Assembly: GCA_963969395.1 (NCBI GenBank)
Contig: OZ017805.1
Span: 3,658,001-3,722,000, forward strand
Reading direction: 5' to 3'
DNA: 64,000 bases
Source of the DNA: Pseudoscleropodium purum
Lineage: Eukaryota > Streptophyta > Bryopsida > Hypnales > Brachytheciaceae
Shown in pieces: positions 2,310 through 63,989 of the stretch; positions within the stretch are counted from its first letter, which is position 1, and the number at the start of each line of letters is the position of its first letter. The notes beneath the pieces were generated by a model, which was not told where the DNA came from, did no database searches, and saw only the letters and a list, made by a program, of their open reading frames with translations. Made by a program: the position numbers and the translations under genes.

Positions 2310-3269
2310 TTCAAGTCAAATCAACTTGAACTTACTATTCTACTTTTTCTATATGAAAGAAAGAGATTATCATAATGAATCATCTACCCTTCTATTTAAT
2401 CATGTGAAAAATCAATGATGACATTCATTCCACAAACATCACCAAAAGAAACTTTTATTTGAAAAGTGCAAATCACCAAGATGCATTGATTCAAGTCAAA
2501 TTTTTCAACTAATCAGTGGAAAACATTTCAATAAGAACCATGCTTCATTTCTCTCAAGCAATGCTTTGTTTTCAAATCTAAAAATTCATAGTATGTCACA
2601 CCATTTCATTTGGCTATTTTTATTTGTGAACTTCCATTTCATACATAAAATATCAACTCATTGAAGTTACAAGAATTTTCTTTTTCCAGAGAATTATCTA
2701 ACAATATATGTAGAAGTTCAAGTAGAATCAACTTGAACTTGCTATTCAATGGTATTGCAAATTTGCTTGATGAAAAACTTTGCTATCACTTTAAGTCAAA
2801 TCGATTTGAACTAAAAGATTTTTCGTACAAGAGAATAGTTTGAACATGAACATCCCTTACATACATGAACTATAAACTCGAGTCAAATAAACATGAATTA
2901 ATTTGAATTTTCTTAGAAAATTATCTAACAACATATTCAAAAGATCAAGTCAAATCGACTTGAACTTGTTATTCAATAGTATTGCAAATTTTCCAAACAA
3001 AAAATCTCTGACGTCAATTTAAGTCAAATTGACTTGAACTTAATGATTTGTAGTATTGGAAAATAGTCTGAGACAACCATCGTCGATGATTTATTTAAGT
3101 CAAATCAACCTGAACTTAAAGCATTGTACTATTGTAGAATTATGTCAAGCAACCATATGTGCCATCAATTCAAGTCGTATCGACTCGAATTTTAATGTGT
3201 CTTTATTTTACTGTTTTGAGGTTAAAAATGTGCTATAACATATTCACATTTAAGTCAACTCGACTTGAA
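2310..3269. repeat. PAL-1 palindrome cluster, about 75-bp spacing
   Basis: Copies of the 21-bp imperfect palindrome start at 2310, 2490 (degenerate), 2717, 2790, 2879 (degenerate), 2944, 3018, 3094, 3169 and 3249. The arms are TTCAAGTC and GACTTGAA around a five-base centre, usually AAATC. From 2717 onward the start-to-start distances are about 73, 89, 65, 74, 76, 75 and 80 bases. The sequence between copies is not repeated. No coding frame spans the cluster. Confidence 0.8.
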
Positions 3270-6200
3270 TACATGATTTGAAAGTAATGCAGGATTGTCA
3301 ATTCTATCATTTGGAGAGGTGTGTTCTGTAAATCACAACGCTTTGATTGAGATGATAGCATTCCCATTGTAGTGACAAATTCCCACAAGGACACAACAAC
3401 AACGATGGAATTGAGGAATCATATCAATGCAATTGATATTGCAGATCTTAAGTTTTGTCGCGCAATGCACAAATAGTAAAGCAAAAAACATTTTAAGAGC
3501 ACTAAACAACATTCAACAACCTTGCATACATTGATAGACGTGAAGTCGGCATTCAAATGTAGGAAACCAATAAACTGAATTTGAGGACAAATATACCAAG
3601 AAACGATACACTTCGAAAGTCCTCTCCCATCAGAAGGTTATAAAACTTCTATAATTCAAGCGTAATGTGTTCCAAGTGTGCAGCAAGGGGATCGCCTACG
3701 AAACATTCAAGCAACAAAGTCAACGCAATTGAAGACAAAAGAGCTAATTATTGTGAGCACAAGAGAGAAGCGAATGAAATGAAAATGAGAAATGCTCCTA
3801 TTGAGACAAAAGAGATGAATGCTTTAAAGCGGGAAAGTAATGGCAAGAAGTAGGTAAAGGCATCTTCTGGCTTCCAGCGGCAAAGACTTCATAATTTTAA
3901 TCGGGTCTCATTAACAGGTTTGTTACAACTCACAGAGCTTATTTTAAATAATTCTAAAATAAATTTTGTTCATTTTCCTTTTTCTAACACAAATAAATTT
4001 TAAGAGAAGTCTTTAGGCTACATACAAAAGTTGCTCCAAAACTTCTTTCTACACTTTTACTACAACTACAAGTAGAAGACCAAATCTGTGAAGAGAGTTT
4101 TTTTTCTAGAAAGTGGCATTTCTGGTCTCCATTGGCATTAAAATTAGAGTACATTCTTTCTGTAGGAACTTGAAGTAGGTGAGAGAAGAATTTTCCAAGC
4201 ACGTTGCAAAGTCTCATTTAGTATAAGTCACATCTTTCCATTCTAGGTACCGGCATTGAATTAGGCTCTACTCTACATACCTTTCCCACCCTTCTCTAAG
4301 AAAATAGTTATTGTTTCCAGTTTTCATGTTTTCCAATTGAAGGAGTTTGGATTGTAGGGTTTGGATTTAGAATTTAGGGTTTGAGGGTTAGGATTTGGGA
4401 TTTAGGATTTAGAATGTTTGCATTAGCTTACAATACGTATAATTGATAAATTAAGTTTTGTTTTTTTAGAATTAGAAAAATGCATTTCTTTTTAAAAAAT
4501 CTGAAATGTGTAGATTTTTGCCATTTCCAAAGACTACTTGAAGTTGGTTGTTGGTATTCTATTTCTAAATAATGAAATCGTAAATTGTTTTCCATATTTC
4601 TAAAGATGTATAGAATGCAATGTAAAACAGTACTACCATGAAAACTTCAGAACTAATCTTGTAAAATATGGAACATAAATAATACTTTAGCAATTTAGAT
4701 AGACTAGGGTAGTATAGAATATTTTTCAATATGATTTTGACCAAAAAATTTATATTCTATTTAATAAATGATTTTCATATAAAATATTTATAATTTGTAG
4801 GTCTTTTCCAAATTATAAACATTTTAATCTTTAAATATTGTAACTTTTAAGACAATCACTTGTTGTTGTTGATGATGTATTTACGTATTGTTTTGAATGG
4901 GAACAATTCATTTTAGAACTAGAATACATCAATATTGTTTGGTTCAAAAATATTTAGAATATAAGACCTTCGAAACCTATTGTATACAAAGGTTAGCAAA
5001 GAAGCTTAAGAGTTTAGCTAAAAAAGAATCACACTTTTGTGCACTTAGGATAGGTTTGCATTTATACATTTTTTAGTGTTTGAATGTCAAATCCTTAATT
5101 ACTAAACTATATTTTTTTTTCAAGGTCCATGGGCAATCATGAATGTTATTTTAAAAATGTCCTAGTATTTCATCAATAAAATGAAATGAGGCTTGGTGAC
5201 TTTTCATCTTTGTATGGATTGACTATACATTTAGATTGTATAATTTTTTATTAATTGTATTTTCCTTTCATGATAAATTCATAATTCATTGTATTGTCAT
5301 TAATAAAATCTCTTACCTACCTTCAACTAAAATAAATCATAGTAAATTCATTTCTTGTCAAAATTTTTGTCAAAATCAAATTAGATTGAAAACACGTTGG
5401 TCATGAAATCAAATATTTTCAAAAATCAATATTAAAATCATGTATTAGCAATAATTTACATTGATAGATATATTGAATTTAAGGGTTATTATCAAAAGAG
5501 TTCTGGAATTTTGAGTGGATAACATAGCAATAATGCATGAAGATAAATTTACAGTAATTCTAATACTAGTTATTTTTGAAATAATTGCTAAGTGATTTAA
5601 TTTATTTTACTCTGCATATTTTTTTCATTTTTACATGTAGGTTGAGAATTATAATACAAAATTTTGGTACATAGAACCTTTAAAATCTTATGGTGCTAGA
5701 CAATTCATAGTATTGTGTAATAATAATAAGAGATTCTTATTTCAAACTGATTTATTATTTTTAATTTGGCCAAACATGATGTTTCATTAAATTTTACTCA
5801 GATATGATTTCATGTTTTTTGTTAACAATTGATGCTTGGGAGAGTGAGAAGAAGCCACATGAAACTAAAATGGATTGAAGTTTGGCAATAAAATCAATCG
5901 CAAAGATTGGGAATTATATTTACTTTAGAATTGGTTTCAATTTATATTTTTGTTTAAAATAGAAAGACTATCTTATTTCAATATAGTATTAAAAATATTC
6001 TTCAAATTAAGTTTTGTTATGGTTAGAAAATAACCATAGCACTCTTATTCATTTTACTTTACATTTAATGTAAGGTATACTTGTATTCAATGAATCTAAT
6101 TTTGAACACTCTTACTATGACTTACTATTCATTTTTTAATTTTGTAACTAAATTTAAAGTCTAATAATGTAGTACAAAATAGACTTAATACCCATTAATT

Positions 6201-8209
6201 GGCCTTTATGCCATTTCTTCTTCGTGCGTACGTAGAGTACATTGTAGAAGGAAAAAGATGTGCACCATTGATATGAGTAGATGGAAATAATAGGGTATCA
6301 GGGTAGAAATAGGTGCATGTAACTTAATAAGTTGAAAAAAAGACAAGTTGAACACTTACATGAAAACTTGTTTATTGATAACACCTACAAAAAATAAATC
6401 TCTTCTAATTCATGGCATTTTCTACAAAAATTTGAAATACTTATAATAATACTCCAATTTTTTTTTAACCATGGCATTTTGAAGTGTAGGAAAAAACCTT
6501 TGATTGGGCATCACTACTAGTAGAGAGAGCAATAAAGACTTTATTTGATCATTTATTACCGGTAGAAAAAATTTCAAAATATGTAATAATGTTTAATATG
6601 AATTGTATAGAATTAAAGTAAGCTTCTATATCATTTTTTGGGATTATAGTAAACTACTATCTTGAACCACAAAGCTTACAAAAAATACCTTTTTCAGTAA
6701 TTGATACTATGATTACCAATTTTGGTGAATAAAAGCTTTGCCCCTACCTTTGCATGTAATTATAAGAACACATAGTAAAGATTGATGATTTGCAAATTAT
6801 AAACTATAAAATTTCAAGCTTTTGGAATTTTAATTATAAAGATTCCAAGAGCCTTTCACTTATTTAATTATTGTTTATCTTAAAACTTTTCATTTCAATT
6901 TGTAGTATATATTATATAAAATAGTCTTTATAGTTACTTTTCTTTTAATATTACTAAATCTACCATTTACAAGAATTATCCATTCACTTGTCTATATATG
7001 ATTAAGAAACATTCAAAATAGTAATTTTAGTACATTTGGATTTGTTCATAAATAATTAACATTTCTTACACAAATAATGTAAATTGAATATGTACATAAG
7101 AAATATTTTGATATTCATATGGAAATAGTGGTCAAGTAAGGCCATTAGGTTGAAGGCTATACTTTTAAGGAAATTTTTTATAATATGTTTTGGGTATAGA
7201 GTCCTATTGTCCCTCTAGGAAAGGATTTTAGGGTTTAGGCAATCTATTATGACTTAAATATTGATCATGATTTATGGGAAGTTTAAGTGAAGATTTTAAA
7301 CAAAGTAGTCTTCAAAAAATATATATTTATTTCAATTGGTGTCCAAGATCAAAAGCTTTGGCATTGTAAATCCCTTTTTTAGAATGTTGAAGGTACACAT
7401 AAAATCCTAAACCAAAAAAAATAAAAAATAAAAAATAATATTAATTTCTTATAAATTGTTGTTTCCTACCATAAAGAGGTTTGATTTATTCCATAAAGAT
7501 TTGTTGTTTATAATCTCAATTCAAGAGCAATCAAAGATTATTTTTGAAAAAACAACTAATTGGATGTAATGCTAAACGCAATTTTCAAAATGTTTCAAGT
7601 CTTCTTCATAAGAATAATGTTGTTTGCTAAAACAATCTAACCATTGAATGGAATAAAAGTGTATTAAGTCCATCTTAAAGTTGTTGACATTCATTTTCCT
7701 TTCAATCTTGGTTCTACTTCTATTTATTCAACAATTTCTTAGGTTTAGAAAGTAACAGATTATTTTATTTGAAAATGTGTTCAGCAACTTTCAAATTGAT
7801 TCTTCATTACAGGGTCCAAAGTTTTTAAATGGAATGGGCATTTGTAATCAATCCTATAAATAGCTTTTAAAATGACTTGTGATATTTCTAAAATTAATCT
7901 CTACCAACATTGGAAGTGCCTATCACTTTGTTTGCCTTCCCCATCTTCTTGCCTTGAATTGTTCATAAAAGAGTGGGGACCTAGTGTTCTAAACTAGGTG
8001 CTACAACCCAAATTTGAAAATTTATGATTAAATCGGAAAGTACTTAAAAGTAGCGGGCATTTGCCAATCTTTCTTTAGAATTGCAAGTCAACAATTTAAA
8101 GAAGGATTTAGAATCATAAAAAGGGACCTATGATTGGAGTCATTTAAAAATTCATAAATATTTTGAAAATGCTCCTAAAAACATGAAAGTACTTGTGTTA
8201 CATTCTTCA
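3270..8209. other. Gene-free AT-rich stretch
   Basis: I see no supported gene in about 5 kb. Short open frames at 3665-3853 (+) and 3984-4217 (-) have no recognisable motif. Around 4,350-4,410 the words TTTAGGG and TTTAGGAT recur, as in degenerate interstitial plant telomere repeats. No PAL copies were seen here although they flank it on both sides, so an old insertion cannot be excluded. Confidence 0.4.
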
Positions 8210-8825
8210 TGTGATTTTCTTCTTTTAGAAGCTGAGCTTAAAATATTTTCATTCTAAGAAAGAAATATAGAAGGAAGATCAACTTTTGAATGCTCCACTT
8301 TACAACCTCATGCTTTAATTCAATAATGTTTGGAAGATAATAACTCCATAATATTTTATTCTATTTCAACTAAATTTCTCACCAAATTTTTATTGTTGTA
8401 AAGGTGTGCAAAAAGAATTTCAATTTAAAATAAAGGCAATGCAACCCTTGGCCTAGAGTTCAGGCTTAGGTTTTGTCACTCTCATCTTAATGTAAAACCC
8501 ACATTATTATCGTTAGAGGTTCTTCTTTTGGAAACTGAGCTAAAAATATTTTCATCCTCGGAAAGAAATATAGAAGTTTAATAAACCTTTAAATGCTTCA
8601 CTTTACAACCTCATACTTTAACTCAATAATGTTTGGAAGATAATAACTCCATAATATTTTATTCTATTTCAGCTAAATTTCTAAACAATATTTTATTGTT
8701 GTAATTATAAAGGTGAGCAAAAAAATTTCAATTTAAAAAAAGAAGGTAATGCAACCCTTGGCTTTAGAGTTTAGGCTTAGGTTTAGTCCCTCACACCTTA
8801 GTATAAAAACCACATTGTAATCATT
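8210..8825. repeat. Tandem direct duplication, unit about 300 bp
   Basis: Two adjacent similar copies, about 8,210-8,517 and 8,518-8,825. Shared landmarks in the same order are TTTAGAAGCTGAGC/TTTGGAAACTGAGC, CACTTTACAACCTCAT, AATGTTTGGAAGATAATAAC, TATTGTTGTAA and GCAATGCAACCCTTGGC. They differ by scattered substitutions and small indels. Neither copy has a coding frame. Confidence 0.8.
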
Positions 8826-9504
8826 ACAAGTTCCATTTGGGCATCAATCCCTGTTAGGTATCAACCTTTAGTGAGTACCAATCTCACCGGATATCAACTC
8901 ATCCACTTGTTGGTTGGGGTTGTCACCTCCTCATACTGCAACCTAGGATTTAGGTGGCTACTTTTGTTTTACGGTGGCACTTGTTTTCAATATTTTTTGT
9001 TTTTCCTTTGTACAATTTTGCTACAATTTTGGAAGTAATTTGGAATGCTTTCTTCACTATTTCTTAGGAGTTATTGAGGGCTACTTTCCTCAAGAGCATT
9101 CTCTTTGGTACTGCAGTGCAAGTGTTGCGTATTTGGAAGAAAGAGGTTGCAACAAAGGAGGTTGGCGTTTCTTGAAGATTGCGGTTAGGGTTAGTTTGCA
9201 TCATTCTTACTTGTAGATAAATAAATATCCAACCTAAACTACCCAAACTCCTTAAACTACCAATTCTAAAATCAAAATACCCTCCGCATAAGAAAACACT
9301 ATAGAACATAGAACTTCACGTCCATCTTCAACTTGTATCGACATAAAACAAGTTTAAAGGTAGTTGCTAAATGAAAATAGAATAAGGTAGAATAAACAAC
9401 TGTCAATAAAAAAAAGGTATAAATTAGAAAATTGACTATGGAATTAGCCACCAGTGTAATGTTGAATTACTAGGAGATGAAAAAATGACGTATGTCTAGA
9501 ATAA

Positions 9505-9525
9505 AATCAACTCGATTCGACATGA
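9505..9525. repeat. PAL-1 copy upstream of a 3' splice site
   Basis: A degenerate PAL-1 (ATCAACTCGATTCGACATG core) ends 29 bases before the acceptor CTTCCTTGCAG that opens the 9,555 exon. Confidence 0.55.
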
Positions 9526-9554
9526 ATGCTAATTGCAACTATCCTTCCTTGCAG

Positions 9555-11012
9555 CAATGGAGGCATAGAAAAAAAAAATCTACAAGTATACTTCGATTGA
9601 TTCACAATCCGGAGGATAAATCCAAAGACTTTGGGGACGAGCTTGTACTTGAAAAATGTTGGACTTGAAAGGATCCTAAGCAGGTGGAATTTTGGAGTAT
9701 TGTTCTCACACCAATGAGCGGGCATTTGAGCTTCATGAGAAAGTATAAGAACTGCTCTACCACTTTGCTAGTCACTCTACACAAGTTTGTAGTTCAAGTA
9801 ACGATTGGACTGCGGGACTTAGTAATTGTGTCTTGCAAAATGAACAACCACAAAGAAGATGGAGAATACCCATTTTCCTATCTCTTACCAGGTCGAAGTT
9901 CCACCTTTTTGATTGCCACCACTTGTCATAGTTTGGAGGATACAAATTTCGGCAAATTGTAGGAAAATTTATCAATACACATCAAAAAGAAGCACTAGAT
10001 ATCCAAAGATGATGGGCCCCTTCCTCCAAAAACCTTAGGGTCTTGAATAAATGTAGTGCTCAAAGTGTTTGACAAATTGGTGGTTAAAAACAAGGCCAAA
10101 GCGAAGAGCATGACTATGATATCAATTTCCAAAGAATACAGTGGAGCTGGTGGGAGTCATGGTTCTTCAACTGTCAATATTGCTAAATCAAAGAAGAGCA
10201 AAACAAAGAGGAAGTTGATGACTAAAAATACTAGAGGAGAATTCCAAGATAGTTAGGCTAAGGGGCCAAAGACTCGAGGGAAGGCCTTAGCCTCGGCTAC
10301 GTCGAAGGTAGTAGATGAAAATAGCATTGCTTTAATTTTGACCACCCTCCCAAAAGACATTGAGGGAAGTGTGGAGGAATTTAACTATGAAGAGTTGAGG
10401 AAGGTGTATGAAGAGTACTAGTCAATGTGTACCAAATCCTATATTTTTGGGCAAGGGGTCAAATATAGCATTCCAATTGAAAATCTTGAGACCCCTCTGG
10501 AAACTTTTAACGTCCATGAGTTTGAAGAAAAAGGAGTCATGAAATGCCTGCATTACTTTTTGGAGATGCCCGACCTAGGAAAAAAGATGACTCTCTATGC
10601 TATATCCCAGAATATCATAGAAAAGCCTTAATATTTTAACGACATAAAAGATGGTAAATTTTGGATGGTCAATGGGTAGCACAATGTGGAAATTAGCCAA
10701 CAGATGAAGGTCCTTACTGGCGTCGAGAAGAAGTTCAAGGACTTTAAGGAATGGGAGTGCTTCATTGTCTAGAATCCAAACACAACTATTATTTGGAAAA
10801 TTTCAGCATACTACAATAGGGTCAACCATTTCCAAAGCTACATGGTGACATGGACAACCAACATATTGAGTGTGTGAAATATTTGGCTCTCTCTAAGGAG
10901 GCCACCACCACTGAAGGAGCCAACTAAGCTCAATAAACAAGTCACACCTAAAAATAAGATGGTCAAGGACATCGTTGTTCAGGCCAAATGGAAGGAAGGT
11001 TTTCATATTGAT
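9555..11012 (+). pseudogene. ParB/DGQHR-like gene, exon 1 region (PAL-1 element)
   Basis: One frame runs from the acceptor CCTTCCTTGCAG|CAATGG to about 11.0 kb with in-frame stops but no frameshift. It contains a Lys-rich stretch (about 10,150-10,220), YEELRKVYEEY, and the block WMVNG-stop-HNVEISQQM near 10,665-10,715. That block aligns with YIIEGQYMVEAHKIL in the PAL-2 copy and YIIGGQHTVTACREL in the PAL-3 copy, so the stop (TAG) replaces the Gln of the GQH motif. The motif resembles the core of ParB/sulfiredoxin-fold or DGQHR (DndB-type) domains; that assignment is inference. Most stops are TAG, TAA or TGA at codons one C-to-T (or G-to-A) step from Gln, Arg or Trp. The gene resumes at 41,582, beyond the inserted PAL-2 element. 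Exact 3' end of the exon unclear. Confidence 0.55.
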
Positions 11013-11028
11013 GTTGATTCGACTTGAA
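11013..11028. repeat. PAL-1 half copy at exon/intron border
   Basis: GTTGATTCGACTTGAA is the right half of PAL-1. It lies about 50 bases left of the PAL-2 element's terminus. Confidence 0.5.
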
Positions 11029-11079
11029 TACTCATCCAAATTTGATTGCTTTTCTAGTTATGCTTGTGTCTAATTTTAA

Positions 11080-11107
11080 ATGCCATATTTAACTACTTTT
11101 GGACTCT
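11080..11107 (+). repeat. Left terminal inverted repeat of PAL-2 element
   Basis: It begins ATGCCATATTTAACTACTT directly after TTAA (11,076-11,079). It pairs with 41,490-41,517 on the other strand at 25 of 28 positions. The inner part ATATTTAACTA-n-TT-n-TGGAC recurs at 58,249-58,268 at the PAL-3 terminus. Confidence 0.88.
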
Positions 11108-11489
11108 TGAAAATCCAAAAGTAATATTTGAACACAAAACATTTCACAATGTTTGGAGTTAGGGAATGGATCGAGAGATTTCATGATATAATGTAGAATT
11201 CACGCTTTTGTAAGTAGTACATGGAGTTCAATTTCAAAGCTTACAAAATTGTTTGGCTATTAAAAGTATGAAGATATCCCACAATATAAGTGAAACCTTT
11301 ATCTCAAGGATAAAACTATAGGCGGATAGTTTTAATTTAGTGTTCAAAGAAGTCCCTCAAATGAATCCATCTATAATGCTCATTCAATTAAGTTTGACAT
11401 CTTATATACAATAGCTTTGACAACCACCTATAATATTTAAATTAAAAATGTATACATCAAAAGATATCATGGTGAACTCAATGTTTTAA

Positions 11490-11621
11490 GAGATCTCACA
11501 AAAACGTATATTATATCTATAAATCTCACGATGACCTAAACGTCACAAGAAATCTCACGATGACATAAACATAATGAGAAATCTTACAATGAAATAAATG
11601 TAACGAGAAAACTCACGATGA
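11490..11621. repeat. Subterminal PAL-2 half-site array (left end)
   Basis: At least five copies of the half-motif ATCTCACGATGA, or variants, in the same orientation within 130 bases (about 11,490, 11,521, 11,550, 11,577, 11,607). They lie 400-540 bases inside the left terminus. The right end has a comparable array at 41,237-41,460. Confidence 0.65.
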
Positions 11622-12252
11622 AATAAATGTATCCAAAGATATATTTACCGTATATATACATCAATGTTCTATTTAATTAGGGGTTCGCTTCATTAGACCT
11701 ATTCAAATTTGCCAAGGCAACTTCTCTACTTTTCTTTGGAACAGTTTGTAATTTTGGATCTACTATCTTGGACCAATTTGCATACACTATGCAAGTTGTG
11801 TCCACCCAAGTGGGCGGAGTGCTTTCAACAACCCATTTTCCATACCAGCAATTTTGATACCTCAACTCCATTGTACTTTCACAATTATCCAGTTTCCAAT
11901 ATTGAAGCAAGAATTTTTTGTTGTTCACATCCCCTGCCAATTGGCATACAATGGACAATGCTCTTCCTTGCCAAACCGCACAAAGTTCAGGGTCTTGAGG
12001 TGGAAGAAGAACTCACGAGCTAGGGTGAATGTCAAGCCAAGGATTAAAGCTTTCTTGTGGAGCTTCATTTGCGGGGCCACAGTAAGGTTCCTAGTCCACT
12101 TCCTTCGAAATGATGTCTACTGGATTCACCCTTGAGTGTGAGCCCGATACTTCATCACGTAGCACCTTCCAATCATGTTGTGGCTAGAAGCCTTCCAATA
12201 ATTCTACACCAGAATTGGGAAGTGGTTCTTTCAACTCCGACAACACACGTAT

Positions 12253-15254: not shown

Positions 15255-15960
15255 CTAAAAAGAAGTCCAATGTTACATTAGTACTTAATAAAGAAATTCC
15301 AATCTGAAATGAAGATATAGAAAGTAATTACTTAAAGGAATAACAAATATGGCAACCTATACACAGACATATTCTCTGACTATGGTAGAATTTGAATAAG
15401 CAACCCCAAGTAATTAATCCAAACTTGGAGTTAAATTACTTTTGTCTCATACCTTTTAATAGAATCTCTACTAACTTATAAAACAAAAAGACATTGTGCA
15501 TACACCATCGATTCAGGCACACCCATACTAAAAAAGCTGAGCTACCATGATCTAATTGGATAACATCCACGCAAAAATGTTCACTAATATAAAAATATCG
15601 GCATCTTGAGATCTCGCGATCCATCTATGAAATGATCTCCGAAAGGAAATTTTCTAGGAGATCTAACAATCTGTAAACACTTTGATCATATATATATTCA
15701 AGCCACTGATAGAACTCGTCAACATGAGATCTCAAGATGACCAAAGGAACAAAGATTGCTATATAACTATCGACCAATTCAGAAGCATAGTAATCATGAG
15801 ATCTTACAATGATTAGTTCAAAAGACTTCACGAATTGACAACTTCCCAATTGAAAAAGTCAAACAACCATTATGATATTTGACGATTATCACATGAGGAC
15901 ACAATCAAATATATCCAGCGACCAATTGATAGAGACAATCATTATGAGATCTCATGATCC
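15112..15960. repeat. PAL-2 palindrome group
   Basis: Variants of CATCGTGAGATCTCACGATG lie at about 15,112-15,129, 15,602-15,621, 15,720-15,740, 15,791-15,812 and 15,939-15,958. All keep the GAGATCT(C/T) centre. They lie in or between short minus-strand frames (15,436-15,849) that I cannot assign. Confidence 0.75.
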
Positions 15961-17048: not shown

Positions 17049-17163
17049 AATAGTGTCGCAGCATAGGGCAGGTCAATTCCCCATTATACTCACAAAAATC
17101 GCCCTAGAGTATAACTAAGTGACTCTAAAGATCGAACCCACGAGATCCTGTGAAGTATCTAGC

Positions 17164-41538: not shown

Positions 41539-41581
41539 TATACAACTTTGTTTCTTAACTTTCCCTGTGTATTCTCTGTAG

Positions 41582-51600: not shown

Positions 51601-52186
51601 GCGGAGATTAGCAACCGCCATTGGAAATCCACACTCATTGGAAGGTCTACCAACTTTAGAATCCATCTAACAGCTAGGAAAACTACCCCCTGTCAGTTCC
51701 AAGGGGCTTTGATCTATCGTTGTAGTAGAAGGAACTGGAAGTAATTCTGAGTGACCTGCTTGCCGAATTAGCCATCTGGAAAGTTGTGAGGATGTTAACT
51801 ATATTTCTCTACTACAACCTAATCAGTTGCTTGGGTGTTTGTTTGTTTCAGTAAGATTTGAGAGAGAGAGAGAAAGAGAGACTTGAGTGGTAAAGTCCCT
51901 ATCCCTCTAAAGATCAATAATGGACCCTCTGATGGTAAAACAACGGAATAGAAAACCAATGAATTAAAGATACGAAACTAGAAATCGAGTGAGGATGAAT
52001 CTAGATTGGATTTCGAAAAGTAACCAAAATAGGAAGAAGAGAAAAGAAGTAGACAGATTGGAAATAGAGGAAATCCGGATATTGTATTTTGCAACAACAT
52101 CCTAGAATCCCTTGGGACAATAGTTTGTGTCATTTTACCACATTTTGGCGTGTAAAGATACTTATGCCTAGATTGCACATATAACA
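48640..52186 (+). mobile_element. Element C: decayed gag-like element, about 3.5 kb
   Basis: Colinear with A and B: the leader (GACTAGAATAGGGTTAGATA; GGGAACTAGGG), the gag-like core, the 3' part (GCCACTAGGTGGACATTTTAGC; ACCCTCTGATGGTAAAACAA) and the end (TTGCACATATAACA). The 5' tip is degraded and no matching target duplication was found, so the start is approximate. It lies outside the PAL elements. Confidence 0.65.
49087..51060 (+). pseudogene. Decayed gag-like ORF of element C
   Basis: Recognisable blocks in order: NEEMIYDLVYWVSNQYKLTV, RGRLVA-stop-TEDVWADV (TAG for the Trp kept in B), YVSGKF, NTFFGALEDRIVHWER, YLFHLYHHKEVLS and WMQ-stop-AQQMHG. The longest open piece, 50,273-50,758 (161 codons), covers GLKVVMILIDFEAWM, matching RIVRILADFAEQV of D, and a Pro-rich tail. 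Many stops and some frameshifts. It is more decayed in the middle than A and B, but keeps Gln and Trp codons lost in those copies. Confidence 0.7.
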
Positions 52187-53064: not shown

Positions 53065-56000
53065 AATGAATGTCATAATCATTTTTGCTAAGTCTGAAAA
53101 TCATAAATGACTACTTTATTGTAATGTAAACATGACAAAAGCATTACTTTTCATGCAAGAAAACATGACAAATTAGGATCTTGGAGGCAATGGCATAGAC
53201 ATAGGAAAAGGAGCAAGAGTTGCATCAAAGAGTATGTCAACTCAAGAATATATTTTTCTTCTCAAAGCTAAAGTTCAAAGCTTGAGAAGTGGAAAGGGTT
53301 CTTCAAATCATCCAATTTTGCATTCTCTGTCTCCCATGGTGTGAATCCTAATTTCGCCACCCGAGACTTAGGATTTTCTTTTTCTTTTTTATATGTTTTA
53401 GAGTGTAGTTTTAGGTGTTAAAAGACCTAAAAAGAGTGTTCGACCAAAACCTATGCTACACATGCTAATATGCCTCTTGGTCACTTTATACCTAGTTTTA
53501 CTATAATACAATCCAAACCTATATATAAATAAGATAGAAACCCACCTTTTATACATAGTAAGCATGTTAGTGGAAAATGCCTGATTATCTATACCTATTC
53601 TTGCAATGAGATACAAATTGGCTCAAAATGGTCCAAGGGAATTTTATGAGAATCCTAAGGTAGAGTTCCTATGATAGGTTTTAGTTTCCCAATTCCAATA
53701 AAGAAATAGTAGAAACTTGAATTTGTAGCTTGTAGGTGCGAAAACTCAAACTAAAGCAACAAAGGGCATCTATGATATAAGTACGGTGATTTGGAAAGGG
53801 AGTCATGCCAGGAGTCCACCGGTGCAATCGCTTGGCCAAAATTTCCCTTTTTGTGGAAGTTTCCCTATTCACCGGAAGGTAAGTGAGATAGCGAGATTTG
53901 TACACATTTTCTATATGTGCAAGGTAAGAATGTAAACTTGCACATCTTTTGAAGAACTCTATGAGAAGTTTGTCAAAAAGTCTTGGTTTTTTTTATCATC
54001 CTAGATCTTTTTTCGAGTAGTCAACCGCCAAAATCCGGTATGATAAATTCGTAGAAATTATCATGGGTACGGTAAAATCTTACTAAAAATCAAAATAGCT
54101 TCTTTTATATTCATAAAGAGCTCTGATAAGTTTCGTGACATTTCGATAGCAGGAGGTGCCAAAATTAGCAACATCCTTCAAAATTGGCAAAATTAAAAAT
54201 CAAATGTGAAGTTGACTGGCATATTAGGAGCACACAATGTTGGAATTTAACAAAATTAGGTTCTTTTCTTACTCCCTTGAACCTACCTAGAAGCCTAAGC
54301 TAGTTACTTTTGACTAATAAAGTAAACTCTAAAACTTGGATTTTTACCCCGTTTTGAGTTTCTAGTCACCACTAGGATTTTTTGGTTTTTTAAGGTTGGA
54401 AAAAGGAAAAAGGGGTATTTGAAATAGAAAATGGCCTTTTGAAGCCATTGATACAATCCATTTGTGATTTGAAGCATTTCTCTAAAAGTTAGAAATTGAG
54501 ACCAATGTAAAAAATCAAAAATCTTAGAATTAAGATAAAAATCTTAGATGATAAAATTACCTCATAGGAATTGGGGGAGGATGAGGCCTTGAAAAAGTAT
54601 TTAAGAGCTCTCATTTCTCTACCAATCACCCCTTAGGTTCATTTATGGCAAATTCCATTAAAACGGTTGTATTCCATTAAATTGGTAGTTTTAGTAATTC
54701 AAACCATGTAGTCTGAAGTGTTCTTTCTATACTAGAATCTATACTAGTACTAGATTTTTTAAAATCTACATTCTTCCTAGATATGTGAAATCTATATCAA
54801 TTCTAGATTTTTCAAACTACTTCATCTAATATCTATATTAGTCCTAGATTTCTGAAATCTAAAATTGACTAGATGTTAGCAATGTATACTTGTCCTAGAT
54901 GTCAAGATGTAAAAATGGCATTTGGAATACTGCCATTTTAACGAAATTCGCTATATTTGTAAACCACTTGTTTCCATTTGGGTTCATTTAGTTGGATTTT
55001 AGCCTCTTAAAGCCATGTTGCCAAATTCTATCGTTTGGGGGCCTTTTAAGCCCTTTTGTTACTATTTTTCAAGCTCTCTTGAATGACATTGGGGTCCCTT
55101 CAAGGTTGTATTGAATTCAAGTCATTTTTAAGTCATTATGTTGGTTGTTTAAGTTTTTTTAGTCTTTTATACTAATCCTAGAGATTTTCCCCTCTATACC
55201 TTGGCGATGCTGCTTAGGGGGACCTTAATGAATGAAATCGTGTTTAAGCTTTTGTTCATGGAACAAAGTTGATTTGCCTTAACATTGTATAAATTAGTAG
55301 TTTATTTTTTTATTTAAAACAACAAAGCTTGGACTTTGAATTCTAGGAATTGGTAGGAATTTCCAAAGTTTCCTTTCTCGCGGCTTTAACTTTAGCTTTG
55401 AGTTCTAGAACTCTGTAGAAAGATACACAATTTTCTTTCTCAAAGTGCAAATTTGACTTTGAATGGTAGAATTAGTAAAGAATTACAAACTTTCTCCTTC
55501 CCACAACAAACCCTTGGCTTTGAATTCATTACAAGTTATTAAGGGTGGTTAGATAGTGTCTACATTAGGAAGTAAAAAGGGAAACCCAAATCCCCTTTTA
55601 TTTTTTAGGATTGGAATCTTAAAACATCCAAAATATTGGATTCACAAGGGCCAACAACCCCAAGGGAAGTCAATCCCCGAAGGGTCTACTTAGAGGGGTA
55701 CCAAAGAAGGTTGTAATACTAGGTACTAAGGGGCTATAATACAGAGGTCCACCCCCCTAGGGATTTTACCATTGCAAGCAGACATCACTACCTCGCAAAC
55801 AATTGACTAGGGGTTCCAACCACTTGTGGGCTACTACGTCACTACCTTGTGAGCAAGCCTAACTGGAGGTCCCAACCAATTGTAGGCTACCATGTGGTGG
55901 TGACCAAATAAGGATTGAGCCCCGGATGAGGTATTGGGGCCTGTAATACTAGAGTACCCAAGGGCTATAATATAGAGGTTGAAACCCCCAAGGGTTCTAC

Positions 56001-58240: not shown

Positions 58241-58244
58241 TTAA

Positions 58245-58268
58245 ACTGATATTTAACTAATTATGGAC
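58245..58268 (+). repeat. Terminal repeat of PAL-3 element
   Basis: It follows TTAA and shares ATATTTAACTA-n-TT-n-TGGAC with the PAL-2 termini. The partner end is outside the window. Confidence 0.65.
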
Positions 58269-58287
58269 AAATCCATAGTCCAGAAAT

Positions 58288-58866
58288 AAATCGGCCGTCA
58301 ACTGATATAGTCGAATGCATAGATTTGTGTGTCATAAGCAATGAACAGAAATGGACGCAACCACTAAACAAACCAAAGTACCACAACACACGGCCAATGA
58401 TAGAGTTCAGAGCCTACAACTAGTAGTTAAATCAATAATTTCATAAGCTCCTATGTTGTGTCCAAATTTGGAACAAAGCATCGGCTGGCGCCTGATACTG
58501 CCAACCAATTCCTAACATCATTCTCTAAAGCACCTAGATCTATGAAAGTGTTTGCACTACGTAAACTATGAAAATCGACTATGGCAGCCATCTGTAAGAT
58601 GAAGAGCAACGAATGCTCCTCTTTGAACCCTAAACCCTGAGTCCATCCGATCCAATGAACTGAATTGCTCGTATCAGCTAGCAGCCGATATCCCCCCCAG
58701 AAAACTCCAGAGAACAGGTCTTGAAGTGAAGAGGCAGTCGATTCGATAAGACTGGCGTTGACAATAAAGTAGTTCAAATTTGTGAATAAGGTAAAGGGGA
58801 CGAGATTGGAAGGTATTCAAGCCCCCCCCGATTCCACTCTGCAAGGGTATCAGCTGGCGGTCGACA
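58288..58866. repeat. PAL-3 copies near the terminus
   Basis: Copies at 58,288-58,306 (degenerate), 58,479-58,497, 58,672-58,690 and 58,848-58,866, relative to TATCGGCTGSCAGCCGATA. The last lies just after the stop of the gene at 58,881. Confidence 0.8.
58451..58777 (-). other. Open frame next to the PAL-3 terminus, product not recognised
   Basis: A 108-codon frame contains two PAL-3 copies (58,479 and 58,672) read as protein, which argues that at least part is intron or untranslated. A good acceptor, CATCTTACAG|ATGGCTGCC, lies at 58,592. The remaining exon (MAAIVDFHSLRSANTF) would be short. It may be the last exon of the FCP1-like gene upstream or an independent small gene. Confidence 0.3.
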
Positions 58867-58880
58867 CCATGTAGGGCAAA

Positions 58881-59699
58881 TCACCAGAATATCCCATTCC
58901 AGTTTGGCTTCTTGTACTTGATTGACTGTGCAACCTCATAGTGTAATTGTCCCGGTCTGATTGCGCCTTTCATGTATTCTAAGACTGACTCATGCTCGTG
59001 CATGGGATAAATGAATGGAATAATATCCATTGAAATGTTCGGAATAACTCTACTAATATTCGGGAAATTGAGATCCCCCGTAAATGGTAGCGAAATATAG
59101 CACGCCAGATCCGACGTCCTCCTGAGCAAAAGCGGGCACACATCGACCATAAGCACTTGGTCCGTGAAGCATGTCATCCTGGATGGTCTCTTAGTGTGAA
59201 GTATTGAGAGCATTTTGTAGCACCACAGGAAATTCTGGCTATCTACACAGTACTCTCTGCCATAAACGAACGCTAGGTTGTCTCTGACATGTTTTGGAAG
59301 CAAGTGCGCAAGCAGAGGCCTAAGATCAACTATTGGCATCCTGGACCAAATTCCTACGTGGAACTTTTCAAACAGTGTCATGAACATTGCAACTAGCCCG
59401 GGCCTTTTAATGACATTTCTGTGCGGGTCCGACTTATCCACCTTGATATTCGGGTCGAGATAACAAAGTAGTCCCGTGATGCATAGAACCACACATTTCT
59501 TGAACGACTGTGGATGGCCCACGTTGGACTTCTGAACAGAACATGAGTTAGTAGCTACAAGATTATACAACATCAACATCCACTGAAAGAAGACAAGCCA
59601 GTTGATATCGGCTGGCAGCCGATACTGCAACCTGACACCCGACAGCAGCCAATAATTCATATTGAGAAACAAACAAAAGGTGCCAGATAGATTGTGCAC
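58881..59699 (-). CDS. FCP1/NIF-phosphatase-like protein b (PAL-3 element), probably inactive
   Basis: Open frame of 272 codons ending TGA. The FCP1 homology layout is visible: motif I place CVVLCITGLL (residues 69-78) lacks both Asp of DxDGT; KRPGL at 98-102; VGIWSRMP (115-122) is the motif II block; FVYGREYC (144-151) is typical of the family; VLMVDVCPLL (182-191) is the motif III place with only one Asp. Predicted to keep the fold but not the phosphatase chemistry. A PAL-3 copy (59,606-59,624) lies 23 bases before the acceptor CTTGTCTTCTTTCAG at 59,583, so the exon probably starts at 59,582 and residues before about 40 may be intron. The equivalent gene in the PAL-2 element is at 40,510-41,010. 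Confidence 0.6.
   Translation of the reverse strand: MHNLSGTFCLFLNMNYWLLSGVRLQYRLPADINWLVFFQWMLMLYNLVATNSCSVQKSNVGHPQSFKKCVVLCITGLLCYLDPNIKVDKSDPHRNVIKRPGLVAMFMTLFEKFHVGIWSRMPIVDLRPLLAHLLPKHVRDNLAFVYGREYCVDSQNFLWCYKMLSILHTKRPSRMTCFTDQVLMVDVCPLLLRRTSDLACYISLPFTGDLNFPNISRVIPNISMDIIPFIYPMHEHESVLEYMKGAIRPGQLHYEVAQSIKYKKPNWNGIFW
59606..59624. repeat. PAL-3 copy, perfect, before a 3' splice site
   Basis: TATCGGCTGGCAGCCGATA, an odd-length perfect palindrome with S at the centre, 23 bases upstream of exon start 59,582 on the minus strand. Confidence 0.9.
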
Positions 59700-59961
59700 A
59701 AATGAGTGAATGCCTGCACCTACATTATTGCGATCACTTGATTAGAATGACCAAGACCTAATGCTGAAACTCTCAAAGGAAACATTTGAATGCTTTGAGA
59801 GTGAGTGTCCCATGCGCAAGCTTTAGGAAAAATCGAACTGAAATGCCTTCATTACAAAAAAATTGTTTAATCAATACAAAAGAAAATAATTTACACAAAA
59901 GATGTAGTCTCTAGACGTCCTCCTTTATCTACAGAGAATATATACAATCTACAAAAATATG

Positions 59962-59980
59962 TGTCGGCTGGCAGCCGATA
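59962..59980. repeat. PAL-3 copy just after a stop codon
   Basis: It begins two bases after the TAG of the gene at 59,983, so it would lie in the 3' untranslated region. Confidence 0.85.
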
Positions 59981-59982
59981 CA

Positions 59983-61002
59983 CTACGCCTCCTCCATTAG
60001 GTCCCGTGGGCTAGGAATTCCCATGGCCTGCAGCTCCTCCAATGAATATGGCACCTCGAATCCCTTTTGATATGGCGGTGTCACATTCACAAACTGATTA
60101 TGAAGAGGAGAGCCCGGCATACAACGTGCAATCCCAACTGAAGAGTTCTTTTGACAGAACTCTGGGACCGTGAGTCCCGAAGACAAAAACCGTTCAATGA
60201 ACGGGATGAGCATCGCTTGGAGATAAGGCAGTTTTCCACCCTTCAGCGAACTCTCCGAATACATAGTAACCGGGGGTGGATGAATCGCACTATATGGCAG
60301 ATTCAAAACGTTCCAACAGGGCTCGTGATCCACGATCAATGAGTTGTTGATCGTGGCCCCATTATTGTACAAGGAGGATGACTCGAGAATCCTTGCGAGA
60401 CGCTTTAGAAAAATTGGTCGTGTGGGATTCTGAGGGTCTCGATAAGCACTCTCGTCACAGTACTCCTGTCCAAAAGCTAGGTAATCGTCTCCGATATCCG
60501 GCGCCATCCATTTCAAGTTATGAAGACGCTGCTCAAGAGTCTGCTTAGGTAAATGCGACCAATAAACAATCTGAATGTCTTGACCCTTACAAAACCTGAT
60601 GAACTCCTGAAGACCTGGTCGAGGTCTTACTTGCGACCTCTGATGCATACTTTTCCCTTTCAAAATGAGGGGCTCATAGAAGAGCAGAGTTCCCTGAACC
60701 TCAAGAAAAAGAAACAACTTCGGAGTCGCTACCTGAGACGGGCCAGCACTAGACGTGTTCCCTACCCTTTCTTCTAGAGCTGGTTTGTCACACTCCTGCC
60801 CACCTTCAGACGCGGTGGCGGGGAATTTCTCAGAAGTTTTGGAGTCATCATCTGCATTGCAAAACGAAATACATAGAGCATGAGATGCAATGAACTTAGG
60901 TACATGACAAAACATTCGTGCACTGTATCGGCTGGCAGCCGACACAGTCCATAAGTACTCTAGTCTGCCGAGATGAAGGCTCCTACTGACAAGTCTACGC
61001 AC
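59983..61002 (-). CDS. FCP1/NIF-phosphatase-like protein a (PAL-3 element), probably inactive
   Basis: Open frame of 339 codons ending TAG. The likely exon starts at 60,851 after TTTCGTTTTGCAATGCAG, and a PAL-3 copy (60,926-60,944) lies in the presumed intron upstream. Domain layout: KLFLFLEVQGTLLFYEP (residues 95-111), where the catalytic DxDGT is ExQGT; RPRPGLQEFIRFC (126-138); IQIVYWSH (143-150); YLAFGQEYC (174-182); and NNSLIVDHEPCWN (219-231), where the DD of motif III is DH. Both catalytic Asp are replaced, so phosphatase activity is unlikely; a binding or scaffold role is possible. It lies directly downstream of the ParB-like gene on the same strand. Its PAL-2 counterpart is at 39,232. 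Confidence 0.7.
   Translation of the reverse strand: MRRLVSRSLHLGRLEYLWTVSAASRYSARMFCHVPKFIASHALCISFCNADDDSKTSEKFPATASEGGQECDKPALEERVGNTSSAGPSQVATPKLFLFLEVQGTLLFYEPLILKGKSMHQRSQVRPRPGLQEFIRFCKGQDIQIVYWSHLPKQTLEQRLHNLKWMAPDIGDDYLAFGQEYCDESAYRDPQNPTRPIFLKRLARILESSSLYNNGATINNSLIVDHEPCWNVLNLPYSAIHPPPVTMYSESSLKGGKLPYLQAMLIPFIERFLSSGLTVPEFCQKNSSVGIARCMPGSPLHNQFVNVTPPYQKGFEVPYSLEELQAMGIPSPRDLMEEA
60926..60944. repeat. PAL-3 copy upstream of the FCP1-like exon
   Basis: TATCGGCTGGCAGCCGACA; one arm base changed. About 72 bases before the acceptor at 60,852. Confidence 0.85.
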
Positions 61003-61307
61003 AAGTCTGAGCCAGGCAGTGCTACGTATACATGAGCTATTTTAGATACTCCACAAACATCGCGGAGCATGTCTATTGCCTATGAACCTCCAGTCTGAGC
61101 CCACCTCTGAGATCGAGCGGGAGACATCGCTTCATTTGGGAAGTCCTGTTCCCGCGCCGCCGCGCCACCATCTTCCTCGTCATTGGGTCGTTTCCGCTTT
61201 TGCTGAACCCGAGTTGACCTCCGCGAGTCCGCCGACTCCGACTCCTTTTCGAGCGTCGCCCCCTTGCTTCTTCCCCGTCGTGGTTAAGGCGGGGAAATCA
61301 CCATGGG

Positions 61308-61326
61308 TGTCGGCTGGCAGCTGATA
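61308..61326. repeat. PAL-3 copy within the last ParB-like exon
   Basis: TGTCGGCTGGCAGCTGATA; here the motif is read as protein (ISISCQPTPM), 22 bases before the in-frame TAA at 61,284. Confidence 0.8.
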
Positions 61327-61949
61327 CTAATGTCAGCTGCAGTAGCCGGGCGGCCAATTGCAGTGACTTCCACTTGAGGCTCTGTCGCAGGACTGACCAC
61401 TGGAGCCTGTGGAATCCTGCAAATCTCCTCTGACGGTGGCTGAACGTGCAAGTCCACGACCATTGCGACCGATGAATTTTCCGGTTGGAGCATCCCGTGC
61501 GGCTCCAAATTTGGAGCCGGGAGGAGATTGAGAGAACGCCGCAGAGATGAAGGACTTCGTTGCCGCTGCCTTCGAATGAGTGCCTCTTCCGGGGGGCCAT
61601 CACTGTCTGAGTCAATTTGAAACGTCTGAAGTGCTGGTCGCTCCTGAGACTGACCCTGCGGCCGTCTCCGCGCCGCCACGCCACCGGGAGTCTCCGTCAG
61701 ATTGAGGGTCGAGATTGGCCGCGGTTGCTGATGTGATGCCGCAGGCGACACTTGCCCTGATCCACTTGCGCCCCCCCGGTTTGTCAGCGCAGGCGTCCCC
61801 GAAGAAGGTCCCAAGGAAGCCGAGGAGACGAGGTTCATTCCCCTCACACGTTCCGTAGCCTTCTGCAATCCGTCCTCCTCCCGAACGAACTCCATGACGG
61901 CCCGCCCATTCCTCTGCGAACCCATGGAGTACAAGTGAGTAACATATTG

Positions 61950-61968
61950 TATCGGCTGCCAGCCGACA
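61950..61968. repeat. PAL-3 copy in intron 61,914-62,022
   Basis: TATCGGCTGCCAGCCGACA, 36 bases upstream of the exon start at 61,913 (minus strand). Confidence 0.88.
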
Positions 61969-63378
61969 GGATTTCACTTCCTCTGAACAATGCAAATGTG
62001 AGGAAGGGATAAGAAAACTTACCAGAGCGATCTCCGTGATGTTCCCGCCCCCCTAGATGTTGATGACGGTGGCATCCTTGGATTTTAGGGTCGGCATCAT
62101 CAGTTTCTCTAGAAGTCCATGACCAACCCCGCACATCCCGCCATTCCAGTCGACCTCGCCCTCAATGTCGACATTGAACCAGTCGGGTGCCTTGTTGATC
62201 CTAGTGAAGCGCTTGAAGACCAGGAAAATACTGGACTTGTCCTTGGGCTTCGGGAAGGTCAAGGACAGAGTCACCAAAGGCATGGATTCAATCTCCGCCT
62301 TCTGAAAGCCTCCACGGGGAGATGGCTGATAGTACATCGAATGGTAGTACCAGGAGGACGAGGACAAGTACGAGGCTGTCGCGACAGAATCTCGGAAACA
62401 CGAGTTCCCGATGAGGAGCATTGGCAGGGGGATGTATGCTTCGGTCTCTTCGATAATCGGACCGTCCACCTCAAGGATTTCAGCGGCCAGTGCTAGATCG
62501 AGCAGATTGTTCTTGTTCACTAGAACCGGTTCCCCCATATCTGTATACCCAAAGAGGACAATGAATTTTTTGTCCTCGGGTTCCAGCGCCATATTCCCCT
62601 TCGATTGACGGACGAAGTCGACCACCTCAGGAATACTCTCTCTGACATAGCATTCGTATTTTAGTTCGGCAGACTTCCCAAGCGTCGGAGGGATTTCAAC
62701 TTTTGCGTAGTTCGCCAACGTCGTGAAGAAGACCCCCGGCGCCTTGCCATCCGTCGACTTGTCCGTCATTGGATTCATAGGGTTCACTCGCCCCTTCAAC
62801 CAGTTGTTGGCGTCCGTGAACTTCATCATGTCCTTCTAGACGTTTCGGACTACGGCCGCTGAGTACCCCTCCTTTTCAGCAAGCTCCATCCAATCCTCGT
62901 CAGTATATGGTGTCCAGCCCTGGTCCTTGCAAGGAAGGGGATGCTTCTTCCTGGTCCACATGATCTCGTTCATGACGATTCTGTCCAACTTTTTGTCCTT
63001 GCACCAGTCGAAGAGAGTGATCTTCCCCGAGGACTTCGCCTTCGCGGTGTTCTTAATGCTCACGCGAAGTGCAACGATCTCCCGCCCTAGCTCGCACAGA
63101 TCCGAATCCCGAAGCCCCAACGTTGGCGTGAGATCCGTTTTGGTGATGTGAGTGAGCGGCTTCCGATTGACAAGGAGATTCGACACAGTCCCATCATCTC
63201 CAATAAGCTCCCCGTTCTCCCACGCATCGAACACCTCCGTCCATAGCACCCAGGTGGTCTCCTTGATGAAGATGAGGGGCAACTTGGAGGACACCTTCTC
63301 ATCCACGAAGTGCGCCATCACCTTCAGCTTCGCATCCTGGAGGAGTTCCACCGCAATGTTTAGAACATGTGAGAATGG

Positions 63379-63397
63379 TATCGGCTGCCAGCCGATA
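63379..63397. repeat. PAL-3 copy in intron 63,337-63,448
   Basis: TATCGGCTGCCAGCCGATA, perfect palindrome, 42 bases upstream of the exon start at 63,336. A branch-point-like TTCTAAAC lies between it and the acceptor. Confidence 0.9.
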
Positions 63398-63970
63398 CAT
63401 AATATATTAATCAAAAGGGAGAAAAAAATAAAGGTGCGTGGGAATTACCTCAAATGCAGCTGACGGCTTTCCACCTCCAAGATGCAGCTCTGGGCACCCC
63501 GCCTTCACCCACGCCGCTCTTCCCATCTCTACGTAGGATCTGAAGGTCTCCTTTGCCACTTTCTCCGCGATGTTGAGATTGAGGGCATTGGAGACTCTGA
63601 TGAGTGTGTCCGGGTCTCTACTGAATACCGGAATGACCTCGAACTCCAGGAGGTCGGTTTTGGCTTCAGAGCCGTCCGGATATTGCTCGGCCAATTCTCG
63701 ACAGGCCGTCACTGTGTGTTGCCCACCAATGATATACTAGTGGACATTTGGCGCCTTCCACCACGGCATTGAGATGCCGTCGACAACAACAGTCTGTTCC
63801 TTACCGGGACACTCGTCCATCACGGCGTCTAGCCCTTTGTCCGTTGGCAGTGGAGCCCGCTTCAGAGGAATCCCATGGATTTCCGGCTTCTTCCTGATGG
63901 ACCCGTATCCCTTGTACATGGTCTTCACCTGAATTGAGAGAAGGCCAAAATATTAAAGACCAGCTATAGA

Positions 63971-63989
63971 TGTCGGCTGCCAGCCGATA
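63971..63989. repeat. PAL-3 copy in intron before the 63,928 exon
   Basis: TGTCGGCTGCCAGCCGATA, 42 bases upstream of exon start 63,928. Confidence 0.88.

Follow-up and report, generated by a model that had tools for sequence, protein, structure and literature searches.

Why should neighbouring transposable elements (TEs) of one moss each carry a short palindrome of their own, repeated along their genes? The question is raised by a 64,000-nucleotide stretch of Pseudoscleropodium purum (contig OZ017805.1, C49:3658001-3722000; the window), in which an earlier note had described three dispersed palindromes, PAL-1, PAL-2 and PAL-3, each in a different giant element. The element genes encode a DUF7869 protein (PF25273), a ParB/DGQHR-like protein in exons A-D, and NIF-like proteins. 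Searches of the window and of the genome (313 Mb in 52 contigs) show that the observation is real and extends genome-wide: the palindromes are confined to their own elements, keep their places relative to the genes, and change type with the clade of the ParB-like protein. They are putative operators, for which that protein is the candidate reader, in an arrangement that resembles the VANDAL transposons and their VANC proteins.

The palindromes of the window

A de novo search for palindrome clusters recovers PAL-2 (at settings L = 16, 18 and 20), PAL-3 (L = 17, 19 and 21) and PAL-1 (L = 21), together with two further AT-rich clusters (L = 16 and L = 17); block shuffles of the window, one per setting, gave no cluster of 4 or more. 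The consensus strings first proposed have few exact copies in the window (PAL-1 0, PAL-2 1, PAL-3 2), and the motifs themselves hold. At up to 4 mismatches there are 20 PAL-1, 19 PAL-2 and 10 PAL-3 sites, and matrices with a cut-off that allows roughly one false hit in 64 kb match 16, 33 and 14 places, respectively. By mismatch count or matrix, each motif has 10-33 window sites, where ten to twenty recurrences had been claimed. Matrix matches to PAL-1 fall at 2106-11008 and 41517-43051, those to PAL-2 at 11169-41440, and those to PAL-3 within the window at 58289-63971. Each palindrome is thus confined to its own element, as had been noted, with separate territories. The few strays are two PAL-3 matrix hits, at 13580 and 35562 (about 14 bits), and three PAL-1 matches, at 23523, 47238 and 48343 (3-4 mismatches).

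The motifs consist of facing 10-bp half-sites with 1 bp between them (0 in PAL-2), for a total of 20-21 bp. The five central bases of PAL-1, which had been written as a free N5 spacer, are not free; the centre is mostly RANTY, that is, GANTC with decay. PAL-1 (TTCAAGTCGA) and two families found elsewhere in the genome, X (TTCAGCGCGA) and Y (TTATCCTCGA), have in common an outer TT, weak in Y, and a central GA-N-TC. Among the other centres, the tentative family W fits the GANTC frame, Z has GGWCC, PAL-3 has TGSCA and PAL-2 has GATC. When the X centre was left free in the search, it read GANTC in 35/50 sites among the matches listed, which is not independent evidence, because the sites are copies of one another. 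The claim that the sequences differ completely between families was too strong: a GANTC centre and a frame of 10-bp half-sites are common to PAL-1, X and Y.

Confinement across the genome

Genome-wide counts cover PAL-2, PAL-3, X and Y, with the reversed pattern as control. At up to 2 mismatches there are 2472 PAL-3 sites and 117 PAL-2 sites; at up to 1 mismatch there are 351 X sites and 193 Y sites; the reversed control gave 0 in all four cases. The sites of these four families cluster, and the even spread that the earlier note had named as refuting its reading was not seen. Among the matches listed, 60/62 exact PAL-3 sites on contig C1 have a ParB-like copy at a distance of 13.2 kb or less, against a chance expectation of 0.7 and a maximum of 4 in 2000 draws. 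For the next two families an 18-kb radius was used, chosen after the listings had been inspected. Exact X sites lie within it of an exon C match of 35-41% identity in 48/50 cases among the matches listed (0.29 expected), and exact Y sites, again among the matches listed, lie within it of their own gene copy in 41/50 (about 0.1 expected, using a guessed length for contig C44). Of the nine other listed Y sites, five are 19-35 kb off and four are megabases off. PAL-2 places with 0-1 mismatch have another within 25 kb in 33/38 cases among the matches listed; three 2-mismatch places, also among the matches listed, read CATCGGGAGATCTCCCGATG and may be unrelated.

At single loci, nine X sites near TTCAGCGCGAGTCGCGCTGAA lie in 7 kb and ten Y sites near TTATCCTCGACTCGAGGATAA in 6 kb, with none in five shuffles of either. 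L058 has Y again (4 sites), and L060 has a Y-like dyad, Y' (3 sites). Exon C of the PAL-3 element has 145 genome matches (147/149 candidates scored), about 100 of them near full length, and the PAL-3 motif is present in 30/30 fetched PAL-3 loci (3-5 sites, up to 3 mismatches).

Palindrome type and protein clade

PAL-1-type sites are found by matrix in 12/12 PAL-1-type loci, which comprise the window copy and relatives with 48-72% identity, and de novo above shuffles in 7/12. L048, L051, L052, L053 and the window's L044 show no de novo PAL-1 cluster beyond shuffles and have matrix support only. Relatives at a greater distance from the PAL-3 protein (34-45% identity) yield variants of the PAL-3 dyad de novo, with 9 sites in L032, 8 in L033 and 11 in L035. 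The differences in these palindromes, mostly C-to-T/G-to-A, may be decay rather than new specificity. L034 and L036 have no PAL-3 cluster de novo; L034, a relict beside a GC-rich gag-like gene, has one weak generic PAL-3 match, and L036 has four with 1-3 mismatches. L031 has weaker generic PAL-3 matches only, and de novo gave another motif there, TAGATTTC-N-GAAATCTA. It was not counted as an element palindrome: it is one block repeated 2.8 kb apart, with no tie to the gene. Such blocks, with a common 67-bp spacing, occur at two otherwise unrelated places (window 54750-54871 and L031:6409-9365).

Palindrome type follows the ParB-like clades; the lack of such a relation between motif and gene phylogeny was what the earlier note had said would refute its reading. 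On a maximum-likelihood tree of exon C with 23 rows, which leaves out PAL-2, L034 and L036 and in which the W and Z labels are tentative, seven palindrome labels need six changes, the minimum. PAL-1 forms a single clade with support 100/99 and PAL-3 a single clade with support 100/100. Because the rows were gathered by protein similarity, the tree shows consistency and is not an independent sample. Among the tentative types, W (L061) has 2-3 sites, a number not above shuffles; Z (L059) has 4 and Y' has 3, each equalled by a shuffle at some motif lengths.

Placement relative to the genes

With exons and introns inferred from reading frames, the four families PAL-1, PAL-3, X and Y all have a palindrome directly before exon C and one or two more directly after it. 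In PAL-2 a palindrome directly follows exon B. Both X and Y also carry five in the 5' part. The gene-relative places are kept while the palindrome sequence is replaced. Sites had been reported in introns, flanks and sometimes open frames; they are indeed mostly non-coding, and the PAL-3 site at 61308 falls in an open last exon. The sites of PAL-3, X and Y are mostly dispersed. PAL-1 and PAL-2 also both occur in tandem arrays with a period of about 75 bp; in the PAL-1 array at 2717-3249 the steps are 73, 87, 67, 74, 76, 75 and 80 bp. This period is common to two families of unrelated sequence (window 2717-3269, 15720-15959 and 30215-30534; 19958-20655 in E2b, a second copy of the PAL-2 element).

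Structure of the elements

The PAL-1 and PAL-2 elements are nested. The PAL-2 element spans 11076-41521 and is bounded by a perfect terminal inverted repeat of 23 bp (TIR: ATGCCATATTTAACTAC) and a TTAA duplication; it is inserted within a PAL-1 palindrome. Its flanks, when rejoined, give the stretch found in uninserted PAL-1 relatives, of which L045 and L046 carry a palindrome there; ahead of exon C, two PAL-1 palindromes then stand at a spacing of 67 bp, like those in L046. The features of the PAL-1 element in the window are:

137-700, minus strand: DUF7869 (transposase-candidate) exon, Pfam PF25273, E 2.5e-13
2310-3269: PAL-1 sites, a single one at 2310 and the array 2717-3249, upstream of the minus-strand PAL-1 DUF7869 gene
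9327-11028: PAL-1 sites 9327, 9506 and 11008, left of the nested PAL-2 element
41517-41537: PAL-1 palindrome preceding exon C, containing the insertion point of the PAL-2 element
41639-42780, plus strand: ParB-like exon C, frame broken between 42088 and 42337
42959-43071: PAL-1 sites 3' of exon C

Contig C49, which contains the window and makes up 12.7 of the 313 Mb, holds 85/150 scored PAL-1-type exon C matches (264 candidates), including all of the best 32. PAL-3-type matches are not enriched there (6/145). Possibly C49 is a sex chromosome or an accessory one and serves as a graveyard.

The features of the PAL-2 element are:

11076-11098, plus strand: left TIR, with TTAA target duplication, a 23-bp perfect inverted match to 41499-41521
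11455-11656, plus strand: subterminal 29-bp tandem repeat with PAL-2 half-sites
12381-13337, minus strand: DUF7869 exons, Pfam PF25273, E 2.2e-31; 32% identity to 140-700
15110-15959: PAL-2 sites 15110, 15602, 15720, 15792, 15868 and 15940, upstream of the minus-strand DUF7869 gene, most with counterparts in E2b
30215-30534: PAL-2 array of 5 sites about 75 bp apart; 12 consecutive sites in E2b
34131-34399: PAL-2 array of 4 sites (34131, 34231, 34305 and 34380)
35385-35861, plus strand: ParB/DGQHR-like exon B, with YIIEGQYMVEA motif
35902-35921: PAL-2 site that directly follows exon B, within the presumed intron leading to exon C (exon C by eye only)
39309-39776, plus strand: NIF-like gene remnant, 24% identity to PAL-3 NIF1, E 1.9e-7
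41499-41521, minus strand: right TIR

Gag-like gene units of about 3.3-3.5 kb occur at 17050-20373, 26650-30152, 30600-34127 and 48659-52186 in the window. Three of them interrupt the PAL-2 element relative to E2b, two of these inside the palindrome array. L034 and L036 each contain a copy of the GC-rich one (18238-19908), 94-95% identical in amino acids; in the window and in L034 it lies near CCGGATCCGG repeats. E2b (L037/L038) itself has a 9.7-kb insertion with a long open frame on the minus strand (8886-10433), hAT-like by eye.

The PAL-3 element spans 58244-71284 in window numbering, about 13 kb, and so extends past the window end. Across this whole copy there are 21 PAL-3 sites at up to 4 mismatches. 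A second copy on C1 (L042+L043), which aligns at 95-96% in three pieces, has 26. The PAL-3 TIRs read AAC..ATATTTAACTAATTATGGAC, and the 4-bp duplication is TTTA in one copy, CTTA in the other. Both the PAL-2 and the PAL-3 element are TIR transposons with 4-bp duplications, and their TIRs are alike (ATATTTAACTA...GGAC) although their palindromes are unrelated. The ParB-like frames are uninterrupted in some PAL-3 copies; the window copy has stops. Its features are:

58244-64000, minus strand: part of the PAL-3 element inside the window, TIR AACTGATATTTAACTAATTATGGAC..., target duplication TTTA
58289-63989: PAL-3 sites 58289, 58479, 58672, 58848, 59606, 59962, 60926, 61308, 61950, 63379 and 63971
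58884-59534, minus strand: NIF-like pseudo-phosphatase 2 (probable), PAL-3 both in the presumed intron upstream and some 15 bp past the stop codon
59986-60858, minus strand: NIF-like pseudo-phosphatase 1 (probable), PAL-3 in the presumed preceding intron and directly after the stop codon
61284-61913, minus strand: ParB-like last exon (D)
62023-63366, minus strand: ParB-like exon C, two in-frame stops
63449-63928, minus strand: ParB/DGQHR-like exon B, one in-frame stop

Proteins encoded by the elements

The DUF7869 protein is present in the PAL-1, PAL-2 and PAL-3 elements. Relatives of the element proteins in Physcomitrium patens include, among the matches listed, A0A2K1IHY2, A0A2K1ISM0 and PHYPA_025887. 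The ParB-like proteins are homologous across families, judging from profile comparison: exon B (PAL-2 and PAL-3 rows) matches the X type with an hhalign probability of 96.4% (E 1.4e-9), and exon C (PAL-3 rows) does so with 95% (E 3.9e-8). The motif YII(N/G)GQH(S/T)V.A, which includes the form YIINGQHS, is kept in most alignment rows. A basic stretch in exon C is nearly invariant, with K145 and K147 invariant and R143 and R146 nearly so. Pfam matches of the relatives are scattered and weak (Spectrin_2 in 4/38, best E 0.0054; Tugs in 3/59, best 0.00036), and those to single members include a DDE transposase model (E 0.054).

The best match of the ParB-like protein in a PDB profile search is an adenine DNA methyltransferase, at a weak E of 0.079. 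By eye only, a C-terminal stretch resembles methyltransferase motif I (VINIWGGGNVTEIAL; VLGIFSGMKLMMAS), and the best match of the exon C profile, again weak, is motif I of PRMT7 (E 0.8). No DPPY motif was seen, and the protein has no Pfam methyltransferase match. The C-terminal part may be a degenerate methyltransferase. The NIF gene of family X matches PF03031 (E 6.1e-19), with a catalytic site reading DLNGV. The catalytic DxDx(T/V) is likewise altered to EVQGT in PAL-3 NIF1 and to DINRM, DINGT, DINGM and DINRT in L031, L032, L033 and L035, respectively. With DxN or ExQ at this site, the NIF-like genes (window 58884-60858; L056:6300-6998) are probably pseudo-phosphatases.

What the palindromes may do

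To judge from sequence, the sites are likely to be operators of some protein that the elements themselves encode. In each family the dyad, present in some 10-30 copies, would be bound as an operator by a dimeric DNA-binding protein that its own element encodes. Dimer binding on duplex DNA suits the sites better than RNA hairpins, because of the 0-1 bp spacing and the self-complementary GANTC, GATC or TGSCA centre; hairpins are rejected, with loops of 0-1 nt and a conserved centre that could not pair. The most likely reader would be the ParB/DGQHR-like protein, which is inherited with the element. It is the first candidate on account of its INGQHS-type motif and nearly invariant basic stretch, and we consider its role as reader probable. 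With sites along its own promoters, introns and gene ends, such a protein would mark its own family only, from end to end. Once bound, it might keep the element genes transcribable or counter host silencing, as VANC does for VANDALs; this last step, by analogy, is possible, if doubtful. Taken together, operator dyads, a ParB-like reader of their own and a VANC-like effect make up the best explanation, and one towards which we lean.

Several observations weigh against it. Profile searches of Pfam, NCBIfam and PDB gave no confirmation of a ParB fold or DNA-binding domain. Pfam found no helix-turn-helix (HTH) in the ParB-like exons, neither Pfam nor NCBIfam found a ParB HTH, and no ParB or DNA-binding family recurs across the 38 + 59 aligned relatives. 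Since all element genes are linked to the palindrome, the role of reader could fall instead to the DUF7869 protein or the NIF-like one. In 27 aligned young PAL-3 copies (of the 30 fetched loci; L012, L019 and L025 were dropped as length variants), the major-base frequency is 0.960 in the palindrome versus 0.966-0.992 in flanking non-coding sequence, and non-CpG G/C positions of the palindrome vary slightly more (0.938 versus 0.961). Because the palindromes are no more conserved than their flanks and their G/C positions are more variable, current PAL-3 copies look silenced and decaying. Finally, a close link of half-site distance to the tree was looked for and is absent: sisters differ at 1 (Y/Y'), 3 (PAL-1/W) and 5 (X/Z) of 10 positions, non-sisters W and Y' at only 2, and PAL-2 differs from the others at 6-9.

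It may be that the sites serve transposition, bound by the DUF7869 protein as a transposase or accessory factor in the manner of CACTA TNPA or the subterminal repeats of Ac. PAL-2 half-site arrays do lie at the element ends (11455-11656 and 41232-41459), and in the PAL-1, PAL-2 and PAL-3 elements DUF7869 shows linkage to the palindrome as close as that of the ParB-like gene. However, most sites are internal, over 13 kb, in presumed introns, 5' regions and stop-codon borders. In addition, the likeness of the PAL-2 and PAL-3 TIRs, where the palindromes are unrelated, means that end recognition need not use the palindrome. A role in transposition is unlikely.

The palindromes could also be functionless by-products of tandem duplication and gene conversion inside the elements, which would fit the 75-bp-period arrays (5 units in the window, 12 in E2b) and the lack of excess conservation among young copies. 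Passive repeats would not be expected to show near-perfect two-fold symmetry in five families, however, nor do they fit the same gene-relative places in families with unrelated palindromes or a PAL-3-type dyad that is kept in relatives with a 34-45% identical protein. This origin seems quite improbable.

Two further possibilities deserve little credence. In one, the palindromes are parS-like sites at which a ParB-like clamp loads and spreads, bridging or partitioning the element, perhaps at an extrachromosomal stage, with no silencing role. The YIINGQHS motif suggests it, but the sites are distributed at genes rather than in one cluster, no ParA-like Pfam match was found among 20 frames scanned, and no ParB HTH was detected by Pfam or NCBIfam. 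In the other, the palindromes would derive from the target site of an adenine methyltransferase of prokaryotic type that was captured, and the ParB/DGQHR-like protein, with a degenerate or altered methyltransferase domain, would read or still methylate GANTC/GATC dyads. GANTC is the site of CcrM and GATC that of Dam. If this long shot were true, each element family would write and read its own epigenetic identity on its DNA.

Comparison with known systems

In bacterial partitioning, parS is a 16-bp palindrome from which ParB spreads. The moss elements resemble this system in their (D/N)GQH-type protein motif and palindromic sites, and differ from it in having no ParB profile match, no ParA seen, an exon-split eukaryotic gene and dispersed, family-specific sites. 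In CACTA/En-Spm elements, TNPA binds subterminal repeats, and Ac likewise carries subterminal repeats. The elements described here are similarly TIR DNA transposons with many short element-specific repeats; unlike the TNPA repeats, their sites run through genes and are dyads, and their target-site duplication (TSD) is 4 bp. To our knowledge, the DUF7869 protein is not known as a CACTA transposase. Fungal DNA transposons that encode TET/JBP dioxygenases appear, from the part of the source seen, to offer another DNA transposon lineage with a possible epigenetic factor of its own, although the enzyme is a different one and family-specific palindromes are not mentioned in that part (PMC12730594).

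The closest parallel is VANDAL/VANC. The parts of the two VANC papers seen describe family-specific short motifs, mostly non-coding and mainly in their own family, which lie in introns and often in tandem repeats, as in the 75-bp arrays of PAL-1 and PAL-2; each family has a related protein, and motif and protein change together (PMC5735166, PMC10398659). The VANC motifs are 8-9 bp long in the same portions of text (YAGTATTAY and AGTTGTCC/AC; PMC5735166, PMC10398659), and 'palindrom' does not occur in the main text of the 2017 VANC paper as seen (PMC5735166). The protein is another one: neither VANC domain (DUF1985/DUF287) appears in Pfam scans of the PAL-3, X and Y ParB-like exons and the 38 + 59 relatives, one of which gives 25/27 families among the matches listed. 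VANDALs have a MULE (Mutator-like element) transposase, VANA, and TSDs of 8-9 bp, whereas the moss elements have DUF7869, a length of 13 kb or more, and 4-bp TSDs (TTAA, TTTA and CTTA). VANC binds its motif and removes DNA methylation, which the ParB-like protein might do as well. The earlier suggestion of VANDAL-like co-evolution of motif and protein is partly borne out, in family specificity and clade agreement, while binding and anti-silencing are what we infer.

The moss system thus appears to be a VANDAL/VANC-like arrangement with an unrelated protein; by protein domains, transposase and TSD, its elements would not be VANDALs. In the listed titles and abstract openings of literature on DUF7869, moss transposons or TE motifs, no account of these elements was found, and VANDAL/VANC is the only TE-encoded family-specific motif-and-protein system met in the portions surveyed. 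With the half-sites and protein alignments, the specificity code is open to direct testing, and the modules could be used as orthogonal DNA binders with long sites. VANC and VANDAL make one ask how the address label and the reader of a selfish element change in step; here the same arrangement recurs with an unrelated protein in a distant plant lineage, as five clear palindrome families in one genome, some of them high-copy and with uninterrupted frames.

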